A stretch of 64,000 nucleotides of DNA from Candidatus Gallispira edinburgensis. Its GTDB lineage: Bacteria; Bacillota; Clostridia; Lachnospirales; CAG-274. The number at the start of each line of letters is the position of its first letter. The first letter of the stretch is position 1. A program made the position numbers and the translations under genes. Of the stretch, positions 34,848 through 44,857 are shown one piece after another. The stretch is taken from positions 20,520 to 84,519 of the forward strand of contig CAJFNV010000054.1 in NCBI GenBank assembly GCA_904395805.1, written 5' to 3'. The notes below the pieces were generated by a model. The model was not told the origin of the DNA and did not search any database. It saw only the letters and a list, made by a program, of their open reading frames with translations.

Positions 34848-37211
34848 TTATTTAATTTTTATATTTTCAAATACAACTGTATTCAGATTGGCAATATGAT
34901 TATCAACCTTATTTCCGTCTGCACCAAGTCCCACATAAAGCTCATCATTAAGATTTACTGTCTTTTTACCGACAAAAGTCCAGCTGCTTCCGTCAGGAGA
35001 AGCATAGGCAGTAAATTTATCTCCCTTTCTCACAAGCCTTAAATAATAACCCTTAAAGTTCAGACCATCTTTAAGTTCAATGTCTCTCAAAAGCTGAATA
35101 TTGCTCTTCTGTGCATTTTCAACAGTATCCAGATTTTCAGAAGGCACAGGCATTTCTCCACCGTCTTTATCTCTTCCAAACATATATACCCCGAACGGAT
35201 TTCTGTAATATGTTGTGGATTTTCCTGTTTCAGGATCTGTTTCCTTCCATTCATATGCCTTTGTGTGTGATATGCCGAGGGCAACTGAAGCACTGTCCTC
35301 TTCCAGGCTGTTTCTTGCCACAATACCGCTGAAAGCATGATTGTCAACAGGTGTAATACTGTCCACCTTTACCGTAAAGTCAAAGTCACCCTTTACCTTC
35401 TGATATGCAAAATTAAATGAATCTTCTTCTCCACCCATTTTACCGCTGCCCTTTACCGTAAGCTTGCCGTCGGTAAGAGATGCACTGCCTTTAACTCCGG
35501 TATCACCAATGTCCGTATCCTGCCATGCACCTAAATCAGTCTGTGTATTTACATGTATTTCATGGGCAATTGACTGAGTTTCTTCTCCCTTTGAATTTAC
35601 AGCCTTTGCAGAAATATTATAAGATCCGTCACCAAGCCCCTTTAAAGTAAATTCAAAAGGTGCCTCTGTATCTGTGCCTATAATTTCATCATTATTGTAA
35701 AATACCACCTTTTCAACATCTCTGTCGGTATTTACACTTATCTTAACATCATCACCCAACACAAACTGCTGATTGTTTGCAGGGCTTTCAATGCTTATGT
35801 CAGGATTTGAAGGCTCATACTCCATATCCACAAGAGAATTAAAGTAGTTTTCAATATTTGCATAACCGTTGCTGCTTATTAACACACTATCGGAAGGATC
35901 TTCCGGATCAAGACCGTTAGCAAGTTCCCATTCGTCTGCAATACCGTCTCTGTCCTTGTCAAAATCAGCATCTCTGTGTACCTCATCGGTATATGGCAGT
36001 CCTCCCACCTCTTCATGTCTGTTTGCAAAATATCCTGTATTATCCTTTACAGACTGTACAATTCTGGCATCAAGGGCATCTCTGTAAGGAAGAGTGGCTC
36101 CTGCCCTTGCAAGTACAAGTTCATATGCCTCCTCAGGTGTATCTGTATGTAAATTTTCAGGCTTTGTGCCCTCCATTTCAAATTCCGCATCCACAATAGT
36201 TGTAAAAGGCTTATTTGTATCTGATATGTAAATACCCTTGCTGTTATCCTCTGTTACCTCTTCATTTCCTTCAAGAACATTACCCTTTACATAGAACCAT
36301 CCCGGCTTATTATTTTCACCGCAGTCAACTAATCTGTTTACAACGCTGTCCCTTGTTCCCGGACCGGGCTTCATATAATTAAATACATAGTTAAGCTCGG
36401 CTCTTCCTCCGCCGTAGCCCGTGTTATAACCCCAGTTATATATTACATTATTTCTGAAATCAAAATGCGCAATATGATCATTATCATCAGCCTCAACCGT
36501 ACCTCCGCCGAATCTCGGGTTCCTTGAAGTATGGTTAGCATATAAATTATGATGATATGTAGTGTTCACGCCTCCGACGATTGCACCGTAGCCGTGTCTG
36601 CCCTTTGTATGACCTGACATAGTTAAACTTTCAGCTATTATTGACCACTGTACAGTCATATTTTCAGCTCTGTAAAGGGACATGGTTTCATCTGTGGACC
36701 ATGAACAGGATAGGTGGTCTATCATAATATCAGTCATAGCTCTGCCCCAGAGAGAATCCATTGAATCACCTTTAAGCACATTGTCAGCCCCGGGTCTGAA
36801 ACGCAAATATCTCATTATAATATTGTTTGAATTGCTGAGATTTGTTTCATAGCCATATATTGTAATTCCATTGCCCGGTGCTGTCTGCCCCGCTATTGTA
36901 AGATTATTTTTATTGGTAATAAGGAGCTTGCTCTTTAATTCTATAACCCCTCCTACATCAAAAACAATTATTCTGTTATCCTGGCTTACGGCATCTCTTA
37001 AAGAACCTTTTATGGGCTCTTCCGTTTCCGGATCATAATCCTCAAGAGTTGTTACAATATAAACCTCACCGCCGCGTCCTCCTGTGGTATATTTTCCTCC
37101 GCCCTCGGCACCGGGAAAAGCAGGAATTTTTACAGCACCCTCCGCGTGCCCGCACACGGGAACAGCAAAAAATATTGCCGCCGATAACATCAAAGCTAAA
37201 AATCTTTTCAT
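34848..37211 (-). CDS. Secreted pectate-lyase-like polysaccharide lyase (PL1-like) with Ig-like and C-terminal domains
   Basis: Signal peptide from MKRFLALMLSAAIFF; AFPGAEGGGKYTTGGRGGEVYIVTTLEDY, IIMRYLRFRPGA, DHLSCSWSTDE; start at 37211 with RBS gaggagg. Confidence 0.82.
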   Translation of the reverse strand: MKRFLALMLSAAIFFAVPVCGHAEGAVKIPAFPGAEGGGKYTTGGRGGEVYIVTTLEDYDPETEEPIKGSLRDAVSQDNRIIVFDVGGVIELKSKLLITNKNNLTIAGQTAPGNGITIYGYETNLSNSNNIIMRYLRFRPGADNVLKGDSMDSLWGRAMTDIMIDHLSCSWSTDETMSLYRAENMTVQWSIIAESLTMSGHTKGRHGYGAIVGGVNTTYHHNLYANHTSRNPRFGGGTVEADDNDHIAHFDFRNNVIYNWGYNTGYGGGRAELNYVFNYMKPGPGTRDSVVNRLVDCGENNKPGWFYVKGNVLEGNEEVTEDNSKGIYISDTNKPFTTIVDAEFEMEGTKPENLHTDTPEEAYELVLARAGATLPYRDALDARIVQSVKDNTGYFANRHEEVGGLPYTDEVHRDADFDKDRDGIADEWELANGLDPEDPSDSVLISSNGYANIENYFNSLVDMEYEPSNPDISIESPANNQQFVLGDDVKISVNTDRDVEKVVFYNNDEIIGTDTEAPFEFTLKGLGDGSYNISAKAVNSKGEETQSIAHEIHVNTQTDLGAWQDTDIGDTGVKGSASLTDGKLTVKGSGKMGGEEDSFNFAYQKVKGDFDFTVKVDSITPVDNHAFSGIVARNSLEEDSASVALGISHTKAYEWKETDPETGKSTTYYRNPFGVYMFGRDKDGGEMPVPSENLDTVENAQKSNIQLLRDIELKDGLNFKGYYLRLVRKGDKFTAYASPDGSSWTFVGKKTVNLNDELYVGLGADGNKVDNHIANLNTVVFENIKIK

Positions 37212-37319
37212 ACACTTACCTCCTCGTAATATTAAATGACATATATTAATTATAAAATAATTTATATATATTTTCAAGCTGAATTTGCATTTACTTTTAT
37301 ACTTTTGGTAAAAGCAGTA

Positions 37320-37346
37320 CTGCGGCAGACATACAGTCTGCCGCAG
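37320..37346 (-). other. Perfect 11-bp hairpin in leader of pectate lyase gene
   Basis: ctgcggcagac-ataca-gtctgccgcag; lies between candidate promoter and start codon; not followed by a minus-strand T-run. Confidence 0.6.
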
Positions 37347-37388
37347 CACCAAGAAGGATATATTAAATTTCTTAATTAATTCTTGTTT

Positions 37389-37419
37389 CTTATAAACTAT
37401 GACATAGGGTCAAAGTCAA
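37389..37419 (-). promoter_or_regulatory. MerR-type promoter (19-bp spacer), pectate lyase
   Basis: Minus strand TTGACT-TTGACCCTATGTCATAGTT(19)-TATAAG; near-identical to the site at 43830-43860. Confidence 0.65.
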
Positions 37420-37480
37420 TACATTTTTGTAATTTATTCAAATTATTTTTATAGGTCTCAGTAAAAAGTAATTATTAAAC

Positions 37481-37630
37481 TTACTTACCGAACATTGAAT
37501 CAAAGCTTTCTTTCCCTCCGGTTCCGCTTTCACCACCGTATGTAAGCTGATTTACACCACTTGCGGTAATAATACTGCTGTTTTCAAATTTTATTATATT
37601 AAGAGTTGCTTTAACATACATCTTTTTCAT
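37481..37630 (-). CDS. 49-aa Gly-rich small ORF, translationally coupled to giant esterase
   Basis: MKKMYVKATLNIIKFENSSIITASGVNQLTYGGESGTGGKESFDSMFGK*; ATG overlaps the upstream stop (TAATG); below ORF-track cutoff. Confidence 0.6.
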   Translation of the reverse strand: MKKMYVKATLNIIKFENSSIITASGVNQLTYGGESGTGGKESFDSMFGK

Positions 37631-40600
37631 TAGTTTTCATCCTCCTTAATATAAAACTTTTTGTCCTCAGGTAAAGCAATAGCACTTCCACTTGTTAAAA
37701 TATCTGATAAGTCAACATTTAATACTGCAGGCTTTAATGCATCCACACTATATTCAGCTGTATCACCGTAAACAATTCTTCCGCTATTTGTTATAACATA
37801 TGGAGTTACACTTATTCCTGTCAAAAATTCAGTCTCATCAATATCTGTTATAGTAAAACCGAACATATAATTGCCGCCTGTTTCATCCAATGAATAAATA
37901 CTGTTTTCAATAGAGCCGTATACTGTGTCTGTTCCTCTGAAAACAGCTTCACCATTTACCTCAAACAAAAATCCTACTTCACTGTAATTAAGTGAATCCA
38001 CACTGCTTACAAATACAATACCATTATCTCCTGCCATATTAGCCAATGGAGTGTATATTGCAACGTCTTCAGTTGTTGTTTCAGTAGTTGACTCTGTCGT
38101 ACTTTCTGTTGTTGACTCAGTAGTTGACTCTGTCGTACTTTCTGTTGTTGACTCGGTAGTTGTCTCTGTCGTACTTTCTGTTGTTGACTCGGTAGTTGTC
38201 TCTGTTGTATCATCCTGAACATTACTGTAACTTACATCAATAGCTTTATACCACAAATTTGATCTTGTAGGAGTATTGATTGTAACAACATCCCCTGCCT
38301 TAACATCTGCACTAAGCTCTACCACAGAATTCTGTACGGCATCTATAGCTGCTGTATCTACACCGTTTATTTTAAGCATAAGTTTATCAGCATTACTTAC
38401 TGATATACTTACTGATACAGTGCAAGTACCTGTCTTATCCGCAACAAATGAGATTATATCATTGGAATTTGTCTTTACTCCGTACTGCTTATATGAATCT
38501 GTCATAACGATAGCAGCAGGATAAACAGTAATACCGCTGTAAGGATCTGTTAATTCTGTATTGCCATATCCCATTCCATCAAGATATATCTTATAGTCAT
38601 CATAATATTCCATGAAATCTAACGGGAATTCAAATAATATTCTTGATAATATTAGGTTAGCAACACCGCTGTCATCAGTTACAACAGATGTTCCTGTATA
38701 AACGCCCTTGTCACCCTTTGCGGTTACTTCATAGGTTTCACCCTTAATAAGGTCTAAACCATTTTCAGCATAATCACTTGCACTTATTGTAAGTGTCTCT
38801 GTTGAGCCCTTTAAAGTGATCATTACATTTGTATCATCACTTTCAATACCGGATATTTCTCCTGTATAGTGGATCTTCTCTTCTTCAGGAAGCTCACTCT
38901 TAGTTATTTTAACATCAGATACATACATATTGGCTGCATCCGGTGTAGCAAAGTAAAGAATTTCAGGTGTACTTGTCTGTTTCTTATAAACTATTGTACC
39001 GGGAGCACTTCCCCTTACTACGCTTGCTGCACATTTATCATCAGTATAAAGTCCTATTGTTCCGCTGCCTGTTGAAGCAGTTACTTCAATAGTATACATA
39101 GCTTTTTCATCAGCAGTAAATGAGAATACAGGCTTGTTAGGTGATACCTTAGTTCCGTAATGAGCCTGACTGTTAAAGTACTGTACACCGCTCTGATATA
39201 TGCTTATATCAAATGTCTGGTTGCTGTCGTTTGTGTATGTACCTGTATAAACACCATCTGTATATGTTGAGTCTGCATTTGTTTCATAGAGAGCAAGTGC
39301 TTCATCTGTACCAAACTCAAGTGTAACTGTTTTTGGTACTTCAACTGAAATACTTACATTTGAAATATACATATTCGGTGCTTCTGATGCAGCAAAATAA
39401 AGTGTTTCCTTTTCAGCACTTGTCTTTTTGTAAACAATACTCCCAGGAGCTGCTGCTGTTGCCACAGCATTTGTACAATCTGCATCGGTGTATAAAGCAA
39501 CTGTGCCTGTACCCGTTGATGCAGTTACATTTATTGTATATTCAGCTGCCTCATCAGCCTCAAATGAGAATATTGGCTTTCCCGGGGTTGCCTTTGTACC
39601 ATATCTTGACTGACCGCCAAAGTAAGCTATACCGCTCTGATATATACTCACATTAAACTCTCTTCCTTCTTCATTTACATATTCACCTGAGTAAACACCG
39701 TCAACATATGTTGAATCTGCATTTGTTTCATAAAGAGCAAGAGCCTCATCAGTTGCAAAGTTAAGAGTAACATCATTTACAGGAGTAACTGAGCCTGAGA
39801 TAGAATCGAAAACAGCCTGTCCGATTTCTTCCCAGTATGGCTGTTCTGTAAGTGATTTATCCTTTGCAGTAAACTTGCCATCCTTGTCAATTGTAAAGAT
39901 ATATTCACCTGATGTTTCCTCACCATAAACCGATCTTGGCTGAACAACAAAATCAGAAACTGTAATTCCTGCATCCTGTATCCATTTTGCAATTAAACCT
40001 GCCTGAATAACACCGCCTGTTTTATTGCTGTGAGTAGCATCGCCTGTATCCATAACAGCATATCCAAGTGTGTCATTTCCGCATTCATCATAAGCAGCCT
40101 CATACATATCGGCAGTCATCTGATATGCATCAATATAAAGAACACCCTTATCCTTATTTTCCTCATAAAGCTCTTCACAAGCTGTTACATAAGCATTTCC
40201 TGATGTCAGCAAATCTGCTGTAGGAGCATAATCTGTCATTGTTGCATCATGATGTGTCCTTATGTTTCCGTTTGAATCATAATACAGTCTGGCTACAGGA
40301 GATACAATTACAGGAATTGCACCCTTTTCAAGAGCCGCATCAATATAATACTGTAAATATCCCTTATATGTAGCACCACAGTCCCATGAGTAATATGTAT
40401 CGCCATAACTTCCCTTTAAAGCATCAGGAGTAGTTACTTTCATATCCTCTGTAGGGACAATTGTAGGATAAGTTGTTCCGTCATAAGGAGCATCCTTTGT
40501 ATAAAGAGGAGCAAATCTTTCTTCATAATAACTTGCACCGTTAGCACAATCGTTATGTCCGAACTGCATTAGGAGATAATCTCCTGCCTTAATATTTTCA

Positions 40601-43600
40601 AGAATAGTGTCAAGCTTTCCTTCATTTAAGAATGAACGTGAGCTTCTGCCCCCCTGAGCATAATTATTAACAGTTACATAATCTTCATTAAAGAAATACT
40701 GTAAGAATTCACCCCATGAGCCGGCACTAAGTGTCTGACCGCCGTTATAAATACCATTTGCTGAGTAGTCTTTAACCGTAGAATCACCTGCAAGGTAAAT
40801 ATTTATACCTGAGCCGGGAGCAATGCTTCCCGGATTATCCGGATCAGACCATATATTGCTGACAGGTCTTTCTTTATCGATAATATATTTTGGAGTACCT
40901 GTAAGTCCCTTTGTCGTAACAGGAGTTACAACAGCCATAATATACTTGCCCGCACATTCCATAGGAATCTGGAATCTGTTTGTGCTTACGGCAGATACTG
41001 ACTTTAACAATGTTGCGCTTTCAAGAATTGTATCAAGGCTTGTATCATCATAGCCCTCTGCCACTGCATACCATGAAATTATTGAAGCATCCTCATCTGC
41101 CCACTCATCACCTAATTCATAGCCAAGTGTAATTGTTTCTCCCGGGTTTGGTGTATTTAAGTCACCGTTTGATGTCATGCTTGGGTCAGATTTAAATTCA
41201 GGAGCCGTTGCTGCATCTCCTGTATAATAGGTCGGAGTCCAGCCTCCTGCAGTAAATACATTTTCAACAGAATAGTCATCAGCATTAATACTGTCTGCGA
41301 CACCGTTCACTCTTTCTGATGTATCAACTTTAACACCATTATGAGTAGTGTTATATTCTGTTAATGTAACAGTTGATGCTGTAGGATCAACTGACATTGC
41401 ATACCAGCCTGCACCTACTATCATATCACTTTCCTGAAGCTGAGTGTTTATAAATGAGACCTTTGCACTGTCACCCCACATTCTTCCAAGGTATCCTGCT
41501 GTAGTATCAAGCTCAGGATCATATGAAATATAACAGCCTCTGAAAATATATCCTGCTGCCGCCATATTTTCTGCTGAGCATGAATTAGCTGTAATATATC
41601 CTGCTGCCTGAGTTCCGTCATAACCGCAGAAGTTGATCTCACAGCCGTCAAATATCACATCACCATTACCATATATAAAGTCTGTCTGACCTTCAATATA
41701 ACAGTTCTTGTAATATGATCTTAAGTAACCGTAGTTACCTGTATAAAGAGTGTCCTGACTTCCTATAAATGAGCAATTGCTGAACTCGATCTCATCAGCA
41801 TAGTTTACAAGAGCTGCCGCTCTTTCAGTTGCTGCTCTTGAATCAACATTAGTGTTTTCCTTTCTTTCAACTGTTATTGATTCCTTACCGTTTACTTCAA
41901 CGCCGTCTGTCATTTCCTCTTCTGTCATATACTTGTTAAAGGAATTTTCAAATTTAATATTTTCTGCTTTAAATCCTGCAGCCTCTTTATTTAAAATAAC
42001 TGCAGCACCCCAGTATCTTTCTACATCGCCCTTTTCAAACTTATCATAATCGGCATATGGGTCATAATAGCTGTCCACACAGCTATAATACTTATATCCT
42101 ATACCGTAATACCATGTAATTATTGTATTATCCTCTGTACCACCGTTACTTTCAAAAGTAATATCAGGAGTGTTTACAACAACCTGCTCACGATATGTAC
42201 CAGGATCAATTTTAATTGTAACTCTCTGTCCGTCAGTTCTTGTCATATTTGTAACTGCATCAACGGCAGACTGAACTGACTTGTATGCCTTATCTTCACC
42301 TACATAAAGAGTGTCTGTATAAGGCACCGACTTAACACTTATATCCTTAAGCAGTAAATCTCTTGTTACAGCACCGTCATTTACAACTACATGTGTTGAT
42401 GTTGAATAATTATCTGACGTAATTGAAGCTTCATAAGCACCGTTTCTTAAATTAACACTGTATGTGCCATTTGACACTGTACCATTATACACATATCCGT
42501 CATCAACATTTGTGAATTTAATAGCATCTGGATTTACATTAAGAGTTTCATATTCTCCCCTTACCTGTGTAAGTCCCAGAAACTTACCGTTTACAGCATA
42601 TACAGGAACTGCTGTAAGAGCTATATCCTTTGTTACAGCTGTACCATCTTCATTGTTTATAACTATATTTTCTGAAAGCTTATAGTCATAAGCTCCTTCA
42701 AGTGTAAGTGTATAGTTCTGGTTAGCTACAAGCTGAGCTTCATATGTCTTGTTCTGCATATCAATACCGGCAATAACATTTTCAAAGCTTGTTGTATCCT
42801 CAGGCACAAATACAAGTTTCATATCACCTGCACTGTATCCGTCAGCAAGTCCTGATATACTTCCCGATACTATATATGACACGCTTTCTTCTATAGTCAG
42901 ATCTGCTGTCTGTGTTTCCGTAACTTTAACATTTACAAGTCTTGTATCATTTGTGAAAGCATACTTTACAGCATTGCTGCCTGTAAGTGATACAGAATAC
43001 TCATAGCCCGGCTTTAATAATATGGAATATCTGTTGCCTTCTACTGTCGCTTCCTTGCTTTCACCTGTTTCTCTGTTAGTAAACTTGATACCATAGCTGT
43101 CCAGACCAAAGCTGTCATTTATAGTACCTGTTACATTTGTATATGCTGTAAATTCAGCACCATAGCAGAACATTTTTGAGCCTGAAAGGTTTACATAATA
43201 TGTATATCCTTTTTCAACCTCTATTTCAAGTGTTGCCCATGTAGTACCCTGTGTAACCCTAAAACCTGTTGTATCATAGTTATCGGAACCTCCCGGAACA
43301 TATGATGCAATAGCTTCGCTTACACCTTCTGTACTTGTTCTGCTCACATATCCTGTCTTAGTGCTTGCATTTCCCACATAGACAATTAATGTACCGTCAG
43401 CCTTTGGTGTAAAGTCACAATAAGACTTGTTATCAGTGACTACAATACCATTGCTGGCAGAACCGTTTGTATTACTGGATCTTACATAATCCTTACCGCC
43501 ATTGCTGCCGTAAATAAAAGCAGTTGTAGGACTGTGGTATGTAAATCCAATATCGCCATAGGCAGCAGTACCGCTGCTTTCCTCATTTGTAATGGTCCAG

Positions 43601-43719
43601 AGCCCCTGTGTGATCACTTCTGCTCCAAAAGCATATAAAGGGGTTGAAGCAAGAACCATTACCACAGACAAGAGCATTGATATAAAACTCATTAATCTGT
43701 GACTTTTTCTGTTGACCAT
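37630..43719 (-). CDS. Giant secreted multidomain pectinesterase (CE8-like) / SGNH rhamnogalacturonan acetylesterase-like protein
   Basis: Signal peptide from MVNRKSHRLMSF (RBS aaaaggagg); pectinesterase region (LYVGEDKAYKSVQSAVDAV...TFESNGG...ALVNYADEIEFSNCSFIGSQDTLYT...GQTDFIYGNGDVIFDGCEI); SGNH region (IYLAGDSTVKDY...QFGHND); tandem C-terminal modules; TTES-rich linker. Confidence 0.88.
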   Translation of the reverse strand: MVNRKSHRLMSFISMLLSVVMVLASTPLYAFGAEVITQGLWTITNEESSGTAAYGDIGFTYHSPTTAFIYGSNGGKDYVRSSNTNGSASNGIVVTDNKSYCDFTPKADGTLIVYVGNASTKTGYVSRTSTEGVSEAIASYVPGGSDNYDTTGFRVTQGTTWATLEIEVEKGYTYYVNLSGSKMFCYGAEFTAYTNVTGTINDSFGLDSYGIKFTNRETGESKEATVEGNRYSILLKPGYEYSVSLTGSNAVKYAFTNDTRLVNVKVTETQTADLTIEESVSYIVSGSISGLADGYSAGDMKLVFVPEDTTSFENVIAGIDMQNKTYEAQLVANQNYTLTLEGAYDYKLSENIVINNEDGTAVTKDIALTAVPVYAVNGKFLGLTQVRGEYETLNVNPDAIKFTNVDDGYVYNGTVSNGTYSVNLRNGAYEASITSDNYSTSTHVVVNDGAVTRDLLLKDISVKSVPYTDTLYVGEDKAYKSVQSAVDAVTNMTRTDGQRVTIKIDPGTYREQVVVNTPDITFESNGGTEDNTIITWYYGIGYKYYSCVDSYYDPYADYDKFEKGDVERYWGAAVILNKEAAGFKAENIKFENSFNKYMTEEEMTDGVEVNGKESITVERKENTNVDSRAATERAAALVNYADEIEFSNCSFIGSQDTLYTGNYGYLRSYYKNCYIEGQTDFIYGNGDVIFDGCEINFCGYDGTQAAGYITANSCSAENMAAAGYIFRGCYISYDPELDTTAGYLGRMWGDSAKVSFINTQLQESDMIVGAGWYAMSVDPTASTVTLTEYNTTHNGVKVDTSERVNGVADSINADDYSVENVFTAGGWTPTYYTGDAATAPEFKSDPSMTSNGDLNTPNPGETITLGYELGDEWADEDASIISWYAVAEGYDDTSLDTILESATLLKSVSAVSTNRFQIPMECAGKYIMAVVTPVTTKGLTGTPKYIIDKERPVSNIWSDPDNPGSIAPGSGINIYLAGDSTVKDYSANGIYNGGQTLSAGSWGEFLQYFFNEDYVTVNNYAQGGRSSRSFLNEGKLDTILENIKAGDYLLMQFGHNDCANGASYYEERFAPLYTKDAPYDGTTYPTIVPTEDMKVTTPDALKGSYGDTYYSWDCGATYKGYLQYYIDAALEKGAIPVIVSPVARLYYDSNGNIRTHHDATMTDYAPTADLLTSGNAYVTACEELYEENKDKGVLYIDAYQMTADMYEAAYDECGNDTLGYAVMDTGDATHSNKTGGVIQAGLIAKWIQDAGITVSDFVVQPRSVYGEETSGEYIFTIDKDGKFTAKDKSLTEQPYWEEIGQAVFDSISGSVTPVNDVTLNFATDEALALYETNADSTYVDGVYSGEYVNEEGREFNVSIYQSGIAYFGGQSRYGTKATPGKPIFSFEADEAAEYTINVTASTGTGTVALYTDADCTNAVATAAAPGSIVYKKTSAEKETLYFAASEAPNMYISNVSISVEVPKTVTLEFGTDEALALYETNADSTYTDGVYTGTYTNDSNQTFDISIYQSGVQYFNSQAHYGTKVSPNKPVFSFTADEKAMYTIEVTASTGSGTIGLYTDDKCAASVVRGSAPGTIVYKKQTSTPEILYFATPDAANMYVSDVKITKSELPEEEKIHYTGEISGIESDDTNVMITLKGSTETLTISASDYAENGLDLIKGETYEVTAKGDKGVYTGTSVVTDDSGVANLILSRILFEFPLDFMEYYDDYKIYLDGMGYGNTELTDPYSGITVYPAAIVMTDSYKQYGVKTNSNDIISFVADKTGTCTVSVSISVSNADKLMLKINGVDTAAIDAVQNSVVELSADVKAGDVVTINTPTRSNLWYKAIDVSYSNVQDDTTETTTESTTESTTETTTESTTESTTESTTESTTESTTESTTETTTEDVAIYTPLANMAGDNGIVFVSSVDSLNYSEVGFLFEVNGEAVFRGTDTVYGSIENSIYSLDETGGNYMFGFTITDIDETEFLTGISVTPYVITNSGRIVYGDTAEYSVDALKPAVLNVDLSDILTSGSAIALPEDKKFYIKEDEN
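38069..38210 (-). repeat. Low-complexity TTES/TTET-coding tandem repeat
   Basis: Protein TTESTTESTTETTTESTTES... encoded by near-identical gactctgtcgtactttctgttgtt-type units. Confidence 0.85.
38890..39770 (-). repeat. Tandem duplication of a ~145-aa module inside giant esterase
   Basis: LNFATDEALALYETNADSTYVDGVYSGEY... and LEFGTDEALALYETNADSTYTDGVYTGTY... align over their full length. Confidence 0.85.
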
Positions 43720-43829
43720 AAATTTTCCTCCTTTTTTATTTATAATATCAAGGCTATACAGCAACAAAAATTCAATATTACAATTCAATAGTTATTAACC
43801 ATATATCCTTTAACTGTATCTGTACTTTT

Positions 43830-43860
43830 ATGGTAAACTATGACATAATGTCAAGGTCAA
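43830..43860 (-). promoter_or_regulatory. MerR-type promoter (19-bp spacer), giant esterase
   Basis: Minus strand TTGACC-TTGACATTATGTCATAGTT(19)-TACCAT with perfect dyad TGACAT-T-ATGTCA. Confidence 0.7.
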
Positions 43861-44035
43861 TATAATTTTTAATTCATCTGCTTTTTTCGACCTTTTACAC
43901 AATTTACCACAGTTTTCACACAATCATATTACTGCATTTTCAACAAAATATATAATTTATACAATTTTCCAATAAAACATTATCCGAAAATATGTTATAA
44001 TTACAAATGATTTATAATATTGAGGATGATGAATT

Positions 44036-44857
44036 GTGAAATACAAAGTCAGTGATTTATCAAAAGTTTTAGGCGTAACAACCAATACAATAAGACGATA
44101 TGAAAAAGAAGGATTTTTGACATCGGAAAGGGACAAGTCCGATTACAGATGGTATGAAGGGTTTGATTTATGCAAAACTGCAGTTATAAGACTGTTTATA
44201 AAGTGCGGCTTTACTCACACTGAAATAAAAGAAATGCTTGATAACAACTCAGACAAAATAACTGAAATATGCCAAAACCGCTTAAATGAAATAGACAAAG
44301 AAATGAACAGACTATATTTCCTAAGACACTGGTTAAAGGATAATGTCCAGCTTTTCAACACTCTTGAGCAGATAGGTGACGGCTTTATGACAATGAAGTG
44401 CCGTACTCTTAAGTATATACTTTACAGCAAGGGAGATCAGCTCCTCAGTGAAAAAGAAAGGCTTGATACGATCAATCACTTTATGTATACTATTCCTGAA
44501 GTTCAGCTTATAAGGCTGTTTAAGCTTGAAGACATAAAAAGTCGTATCTTTATACCCTACAGTGGATGGGAAATGAAAGAAATTGATATAAAGAGATTAA
44601 ATGTTGAAGATATAGTAAAGGACAATAAATTCGTAGAAACATATCCTTCACAGCAATGCCTTTACGGAGTTCTTGAAATTCCCGCAAAGTATATGAATGA
44701 CACGGACAAGCTGACAGAAAAAAGAATAGCTTTCTTTAAAAAAGCAGACGAATATATGAATGATAATAATATTAAAATTTCGGGAGACATAATGGAGGTT
44801 CTTGTCAACGTACTTGGAAACACTGCCCAGTCCCTCATATGCATACCTTATATTTAA
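44036..44857 (+). CDS. MerR-family transcriptional regulator
   Basis: GTG start; KVSDLSKVLGVTTNTIRRYEKEGFLTSERDKSDYRWY winged-helix MerR N-terminus; divergent from giant esterase. Confidence 0.9.
   Translation: MKYKVSDLSKVLGVTTNTIRRYEKEGFLTSERDKSDYRWYEGFDLCKTAVIRLFIKCGFTHTEIKEMLDNNSDKITEICQNRLNEIDKEMNRLYFLRHWLKDNVQLFNTLEQIGDGFMTMKCRTLKYILYSKGDQLLSEKERLDTINHFMYTIPEVQLIRLFKLEDIKSRIFIPYSGWEMKEIDIKRLNVEDIVKDNKFVETYPSQQCLYGVLEIPAKYMNDTDKLTEKRIAFFKKADEYMNDNNIKISGDIMEVLVNVLGNTAQSLICIPYI

Follow-up and report, generated by a model that had tools for sequence, protein, structure and literature searches.

MerR-family regulators are known for tasks concerned with metals, oxidative stress and drugs, and for a few metabolic tasks. 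The locus described here, in which a gene of this family stands beside genes for pectin-degrading enzymes, raises the question of whether such a protein governs these enzymes, and through which promoters. The locus lies in a window of 64,000 nucleotides (the whole stretch of DNA that was analysed) from Candidatus Gallispira edinburgensis, for which an earlier note had claimed a MerR-type regulator and two 19-bp-spacer promoters with a central dyad, one before a giant esterase gene and one before a pectate lyase gene. The features concerned first, in positions of the window, are the following.

44036 to 44857, plus strand: MerR-family regulator of 273 aa with a GTG start (Pfam MerR_1, 5e-11).
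43830 to 43860, minus strand: site 1, the putative esterase promoter, with -35 box TTGACC, a 19-bp spacer containing the dyad TGACATTATGTCA, and -10 box TACCAT.
37630 to 43719, minus strand: giant secreted protein of 2029 aa, pectinesterase plus GDSL/CE12-like esterase, the putative main target (PF01095, 4.5e-30; PF13472, 7e-6).
37481 to 37630, minus strand: open reading frame (ORF) of 49 aa overlapping the stop codon of the giant gene, without a Pfam or NCBIfam match.
37389 to 37419, minus strand: site 2, a promoter of the same type, with -35 box TTGACT, a 19-bp spacer containing the dyad TGACCCTATGTCA, and -10 box TATAAG.

The two promoters claimed on the minus strand with identical 19-bp spacing were both recovered exactly in sequence and position. 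Site 1, read from 43860 to 43830, is TTGACC-TTGACATTATGTCATAGTT-TACCAT, and site 2, read from 37419 to 37389, is TTGACT-TTGACCCTATGTCATAGTT-TATAAG, where TTGACATTATGTCATAGTT and TTGACCCTATGTCATAGTT each comprise 19 bp and share the dyad TGAC-N5-GTCA. Both sites thus carry an operator dyad within a spacer of 19 to 20 bp, the promoter arrangement by which the MerR family is recognised, and the regulator gene on the plus strand is indeed divergent from site 1. With up to three mismatches allowed, the whole promoter TTGACNTTGACNNTATGTCATAGTT matched only sites 1 and 2 in the 2,503,806-base genome, and its reversed control matched nowhere in the same genome. The looser pattern TTGACNNTGACNNNNNGTCANNNNTNANNNT, derived from relatives, gave one genome-wide match without mismatch and one with a single mismatch, both being the window sites; its remaining matches had two or three mismatches and were close to the level of the reversed control (totals of 37 versus 27). 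The genome-wide motif search proposed in the earlier note therefore leaves sites 1 and 2 as the sole strong matches in the 2.5-Mb genome. The 12-mer core TATGTCATAGTT was dropped as evidence by itself, as it matched 14 times in the window with up to two mismatches versus 10 matches expected.

The giant esterase named by the earlier note is present and can be described more precisely as a 2029-aa protein that combines a pectinesterase (PF01095) with a GDSL esterase. Three further pectinesterase genes are found in the genome, none with a strong site, and the putative regulon is therefore narrow. An ORF of approximately 50 aa, typically of the form MKKY.KPEI.I.LF..EDIITASG..., is found immediately 3' of the giant gene in most of the MerR-linked relatives (L034, L035, L037, L038, L041, L045, L048, L174, L178 and L180; partial in L033) and is absent after this genome's three further pectinesterase genes; Pfam and NCBIfam searches with this ORF returned no match.

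Three further features, located 3' of site 2, bear on whether it serves the pectate lyase gene.

37317 to 37349, minus strand: hairpin with a stem of 14 bp, located between site 2 and the lyase gene and followed by a weak T-run.
37249 to 37277, minus strand: ordinary promoter of the lyase gene, TTGAAA-17-TATAAT, also present in conserved form before orthologous lyases that lack MerR sites.
34848 to 37211, minus strand: pectate-lyase-like secreted protein of 787 aa, a possible second target (PF00544, 2.5e-4, below the cut-off; PF17957, 1.6e-12).

Site 2 is located approximately 170 bp upstream of the lyase start codon (37211), with the hairpin and the 17-bp-spacer promoter in between; the lyase protein has an Ig-like domain beside its pectate-lyase-like part. 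Lyase orthologues (59-75% identity) are present in most of the host's family, and the same-genus genomes have the lyase with an ordinary promoter near its start. On contigs with a close lyase orthologue, the family-wide search detected no promoter-pattern match other than the window's own. In the relative G004, site 2 is well conserved after the giant gene, within a poorly conserved intergenic region, and the lyase gene is missing downstream; a terminator-like hairpin follows the site. In G003, a genome without the MerR gene, the lyase gene still adjoins the transglutaminase gene that is its neighbour in the window. The comparison with G004 and with the orthologous lyases indicates that site 2 goes with the giant-gene locus. 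Of the earlier claim that the pectate lyase is the second target, the site itself thus stands, and the lyase was downgraded from an established target because of its own conserved promoter, its orthologues without a site, and the site without lyase in G004.

The same observations lend weight to an alternative in which the giant esterase is the sole target of the MerR protein, site 2 giving rise to a short transcript that ends near the hairpin, or being a relic, and the lyase being transcribed from its own 17-bp promoter (conserved as TTGNAA-17-TATAAT). We give this alternative somewhat less than an even chance, as the hairpin in the window lacks a good T-run, so that read-through into the lyase gene is possible, and as Bacillus sp. 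MRMR6, one of the relatives outside the family described below, has a second site before a second gene for a pectin-type esterase. The hairpin was accordingly not retained as a terminator, and an Rfam search returned no match that would support it as a known RNA. The regulator probably binds site 2 too, and may thereby add MerR-dependent transcription of the lyase gene; the chances that this raises lyase expression above that from the lyase's own promoter appear about even.

The regulator was recognised as a MerR protein by two winged-helix models above the Pfam cut-off (PF13411, 5e-11; PF00376, 8e-10), and the MerR winged-helix domain was likewise matched by all 34 orthologues. The NCBIfam MerR equivalogs (ZntR, MerR, CueR, CadR, SoxR and choline activator) all scored far below cut-off. 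An AlphaFold2 model based on the 34-orthologue alignment (mean pLDDT 93) predicts an N-terminal winged helix, a dimerisation helix and a BmrR/GyrI-like C-terminal ligand domain, in this order. In a Foldseek comparison of the model with the PDB, BmrR was the best match (E 1e-12, TM-score 0.68) and EcmrR and BrlR came next, while GyrI/SbmC and CTR107 aligned to the C-terminal half. Together, these matches argue that the C-terminal half, which the earlier note had left unassigned, is a GyrI-like effector-binding domain by predicted fold; the Pfam and NCBIfam sequence models for such a domain did not match the regulator or its orthologues. Residues R142 and K181 are nearly invariant.

For BmrR it has been reported that the dimer sits on the spacer and that, with ligand, the DNA is kinked and the -35 and -10 boxes are realigned (PMC7722741). 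By analogy, a dimer of the 273-aa protein would bind the TGAC-N5-GTCA dyad in the over-long 19-bp spacer of the giant esterase promoter, and a ligand bound to the BmrR-like C-terminal domain would cause the regulator to kink and distort the promoter DNA. This distortion would bring the misaligned -35 and -10 boxes into register, RNA polymerase would use the promoter, and the esterase gene would be switched on. As a guess, the ligand could be a compound derived from pectin and possibly an anionic uronate, which R142 and K181 would fit. It is highly likely, in our judgement, that the regulator switches the giant pectinesterase/GDSL gene through the 19-bp-spacer promoter by such a ligand-dependent distortion. 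Dimer binding, activation by distortion and ligand dependence are carried over here from known MerR proteins; what the sequences themselves contribute is the anatomy of the promoter, its confinement to this locus within the genome, its recurrence with this regulator and enzyme class across Bacillota, the co-variation of recognition helix and operator, and the predicted fold.

MerR orthologues, defined by E <= 1e-30, were found in 29 of the 48 genomes of the host's family, and the region between the MerR gene and the divergent gene in these genomes contains TGAC-N5-GTCA, mostly inside a 19-bp spacer. With one mismatch allowed, the promoter pattern occurred 38 times family-wide, in 25 genomes (3 matches for the reversed pattern), and did not occur in genus g7, all eight genomes of which are without the regulator. 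The genes 3' of these promoters encode mostly giant pectinesterase/GDSL proteins and GDSL proteins resembling rhamnogalacturonan acetylesterases.

The position of the operator varies within the family. Six genomes have two dyads with starts exactly 23 bp apart. In L009, L031, L054 and L057, all of genus g6, the dyad is located just upstream of the -35 box, outside the spacer. The four g6 genomes have this upstream dyad only, beside a promoter for which a spacer of 17 bp (G011 and G042) or 18 bp (G019 and G041) gives the best reading, although a 22-bp spacer can be read as an alternative in two of them. These promoters would be exceptions, given that unusually long spacers of 19 or 20 bp have been reported for each of 28 experimentally confirmed MerR promoters (PMC7722741). 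The upstream-dyad-only promoters and the six double-dyad genomes would both accommodate the alternative that the MerR protein mainly represses the esterase promoter, or acts as a contact activator where the dyad lies upstream, instead of activating by spacer distortion. We consider this improbable, as the window and most relatives have the dyad in its classical place inside a 19-bp spacer; moreover, repression does not exclude the distortion mechanism, since it is common for a MerR protein to be a repressor when free of ligand and an activator when ligand is bound. If the operator is displaced from the spacer in g6, the same regulator must act there other than by spacer distortion, and the displaced operators of this genus offer a ready test of whether spacer distortion is the sole activation route of MerR proteins.

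Next, the 34-orthologue alignment was scanned against 85,462 species genomes, the promoter pattern having been fixed on the host's family before the outside loci (Bacilli, Lachnospiraceae) were seen. The scan yielded 46 loci, including those of Paenibacillus turpanensis, P. silviterrae, Neobacillus dielmonensis, Bacillus sp. MRMR6, and Lachnospira pectinoschiza and L. multipara, the last two being pectin specialists. The 503 kb around the 46 MerR genes contained 33 promoter copies in 29 of the loci, and ten Markov-shuffled replicates of this sequence contained none. Pectinesterase/GDSL-type genes follow 27 of the 33 sites, three sites run off the contig end and three precede something else; expressed per site with an assignable downstream gene, this corresponds to 27 out of 30. 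With the spacer length left open, 40 of the 45 sites examined in relatives gave 19 bp as the distance to the best -10 box; the other five have an acceptable box at that distance, CATAAT (four sites) or TATTAT (one site). In Bacilli the site lies between the MerR gene and a giant gene on the same strand, and in Lachnospira it lies before the giant gene with another gene intervening. Gene order thus differs between groups while regulator, site and enzyme stay paired, indicating that the pairing survives rearrangement; shared synteny was therefore rejected as the cause of the co-occurrence. The set of regulator, promoter and enzyme recurs in gut, rumen and soil bacteria.

In a control set of 292 genomes from the class, a perfect match to the bare promoter skeleton was found in 13, and the regulator (E <= 1e-40) in only three. 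The unrelated matches mostly have the G/C dyad centre TGACG...CGTCA and lie directly before other MerR genes, so that the skeleton appears to be a general MerR promoter, and it was rejected as a unique signature. The marks of the subfamily would be the A/C...T/G dyad centre together with the esterase target. The earlier note had named a widespread motif unrelated to the regulator as an observation that would speak against it; this applies to the bare skeleton only and not to the full motif, which tracks the regulator.

Three MerR proteins in the family have SM or SQ replacing TN in the recognition helix, and their adjacent operator is TAAC-N5-GTTA, not TGAC-N5-GTCA. A fourth genome encodes an SM protein and has a TAAC-type operator elsewhere. 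A family-wide search for the TAAC operator returned exactly these 4 of 48 genomes, with 0 control matches, and the TAAC operators stand before giant esterase or GDSL genes; for a paralogue in G053 with TM in the recognition helix, no TAAC-type operator was found. The change from TN to SM or SQ thus tracks the change from TGAC to TAAC and appears to tie the protein to the site, and this co-variation is the best non-experimental evidence that the protein binds it. That the sites belong to another MerR protein or a different regulator, with the adjacent MerR gene a bystander, is very improbable: several MerR subfamilies share the skeleton, but regulator and full motif coincide, their pairing persists as gene order varies, and helix and operator co-vary. 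With the same promoter recurring before the same class of gene in Bacilli and Lachnospiraceae, the original claim of a MerR-type regulator with 19-bp-spacer, central-dyad promoters at pectin-degrading enzymes has gained in strength. More tentatively, and at less than an even chance, the findings can be read as an undescribed MerR subfamily whose BmrR-like domain senses a product of pectin breakdown and which governs pectin-esterase genes across Bacillota, with the operator moved upstream of a 17- to 18-bp promoter in one genus, and helix and operator switched from TGAC to TAAC in another. The natural TN/SM helix switch with its matching operator lends itself to testing how DNA is read by MerR proteins.

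The proposed mechanism belongs to a known class; what sets the system apart from those described is its target class, its breadth, the specificity switch and the displaced operators. BmrR of Bacillus subtilis, EcmrR and BrlR resemble the regulator in whole-length predicted fold and in a 19-bp spacer with central dyad, but share only 12-15% sequence identity with it, and the target of the BmrR type is a drug pump, whereas the putative target here is a pectin esterase. The metal regulators MerR, CueR, ZntR and CadR correspond to it in N-terminal domain and promoter architecture, but have a metal-binding C-terminus that it lacks. In Clostridium phytofermentans, the LacI/GalR regulator Cphy2742 has been proposed to control genes for pectin-degrading enzymes (PMC5171806), which is the kind of control proposed here, in a related group; it differs in protein family, in its cre-like operator and in repressing at or after the start site (PMC5171806). 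MerR genes near fibre-degrading CAZyme genes have been described on rumen Firmicutes contigs (PMC3818352), where, unlike at the present locus, there is co-occurrence only, with cellulase and xylanase genes, and neither an operator nor a pectin regulon (PMC3818352). No report of MerR control of pectinases or pectin genes was found in the literature searched (open-licence papers only), and MerR control of plant-fibre digestion has apparently been undescribed so far. If true, fibre digestion by pectin methyl- and acetyl-esterases would gain a regulator with a defined operator that can be tested in cultured strains.

Several minor observations concern individual loci. Near some MerR orthologues no site could be recognised; one of these orthologues, in G021, has a GH28 polygalacturonase gene (L043:10572-11918) directly 3' of it. 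In G053 and G013 (L086/L177 and L087/L104), the gene 3' of a perfect site adjoining a MerR orthologue encodes a ZIP metal transporter instead of an esterase. Two genomes of a single genus have a one-mismatch site in the same position near ribH (L169:4749 in G055, L170:5758 in G021), where neither an adjacent MerR gene nor a target could be recognised; the one-mismatch sites in L066, L085, L088, L089, L091 and L094 may be due to chance. Finally, a GH95-family glycosidase gene follows the same promoter in G049 and G010 (L171:8265-11249 and L176:9180-12164), which suggests that side-chain enzymes belong to the regulon.
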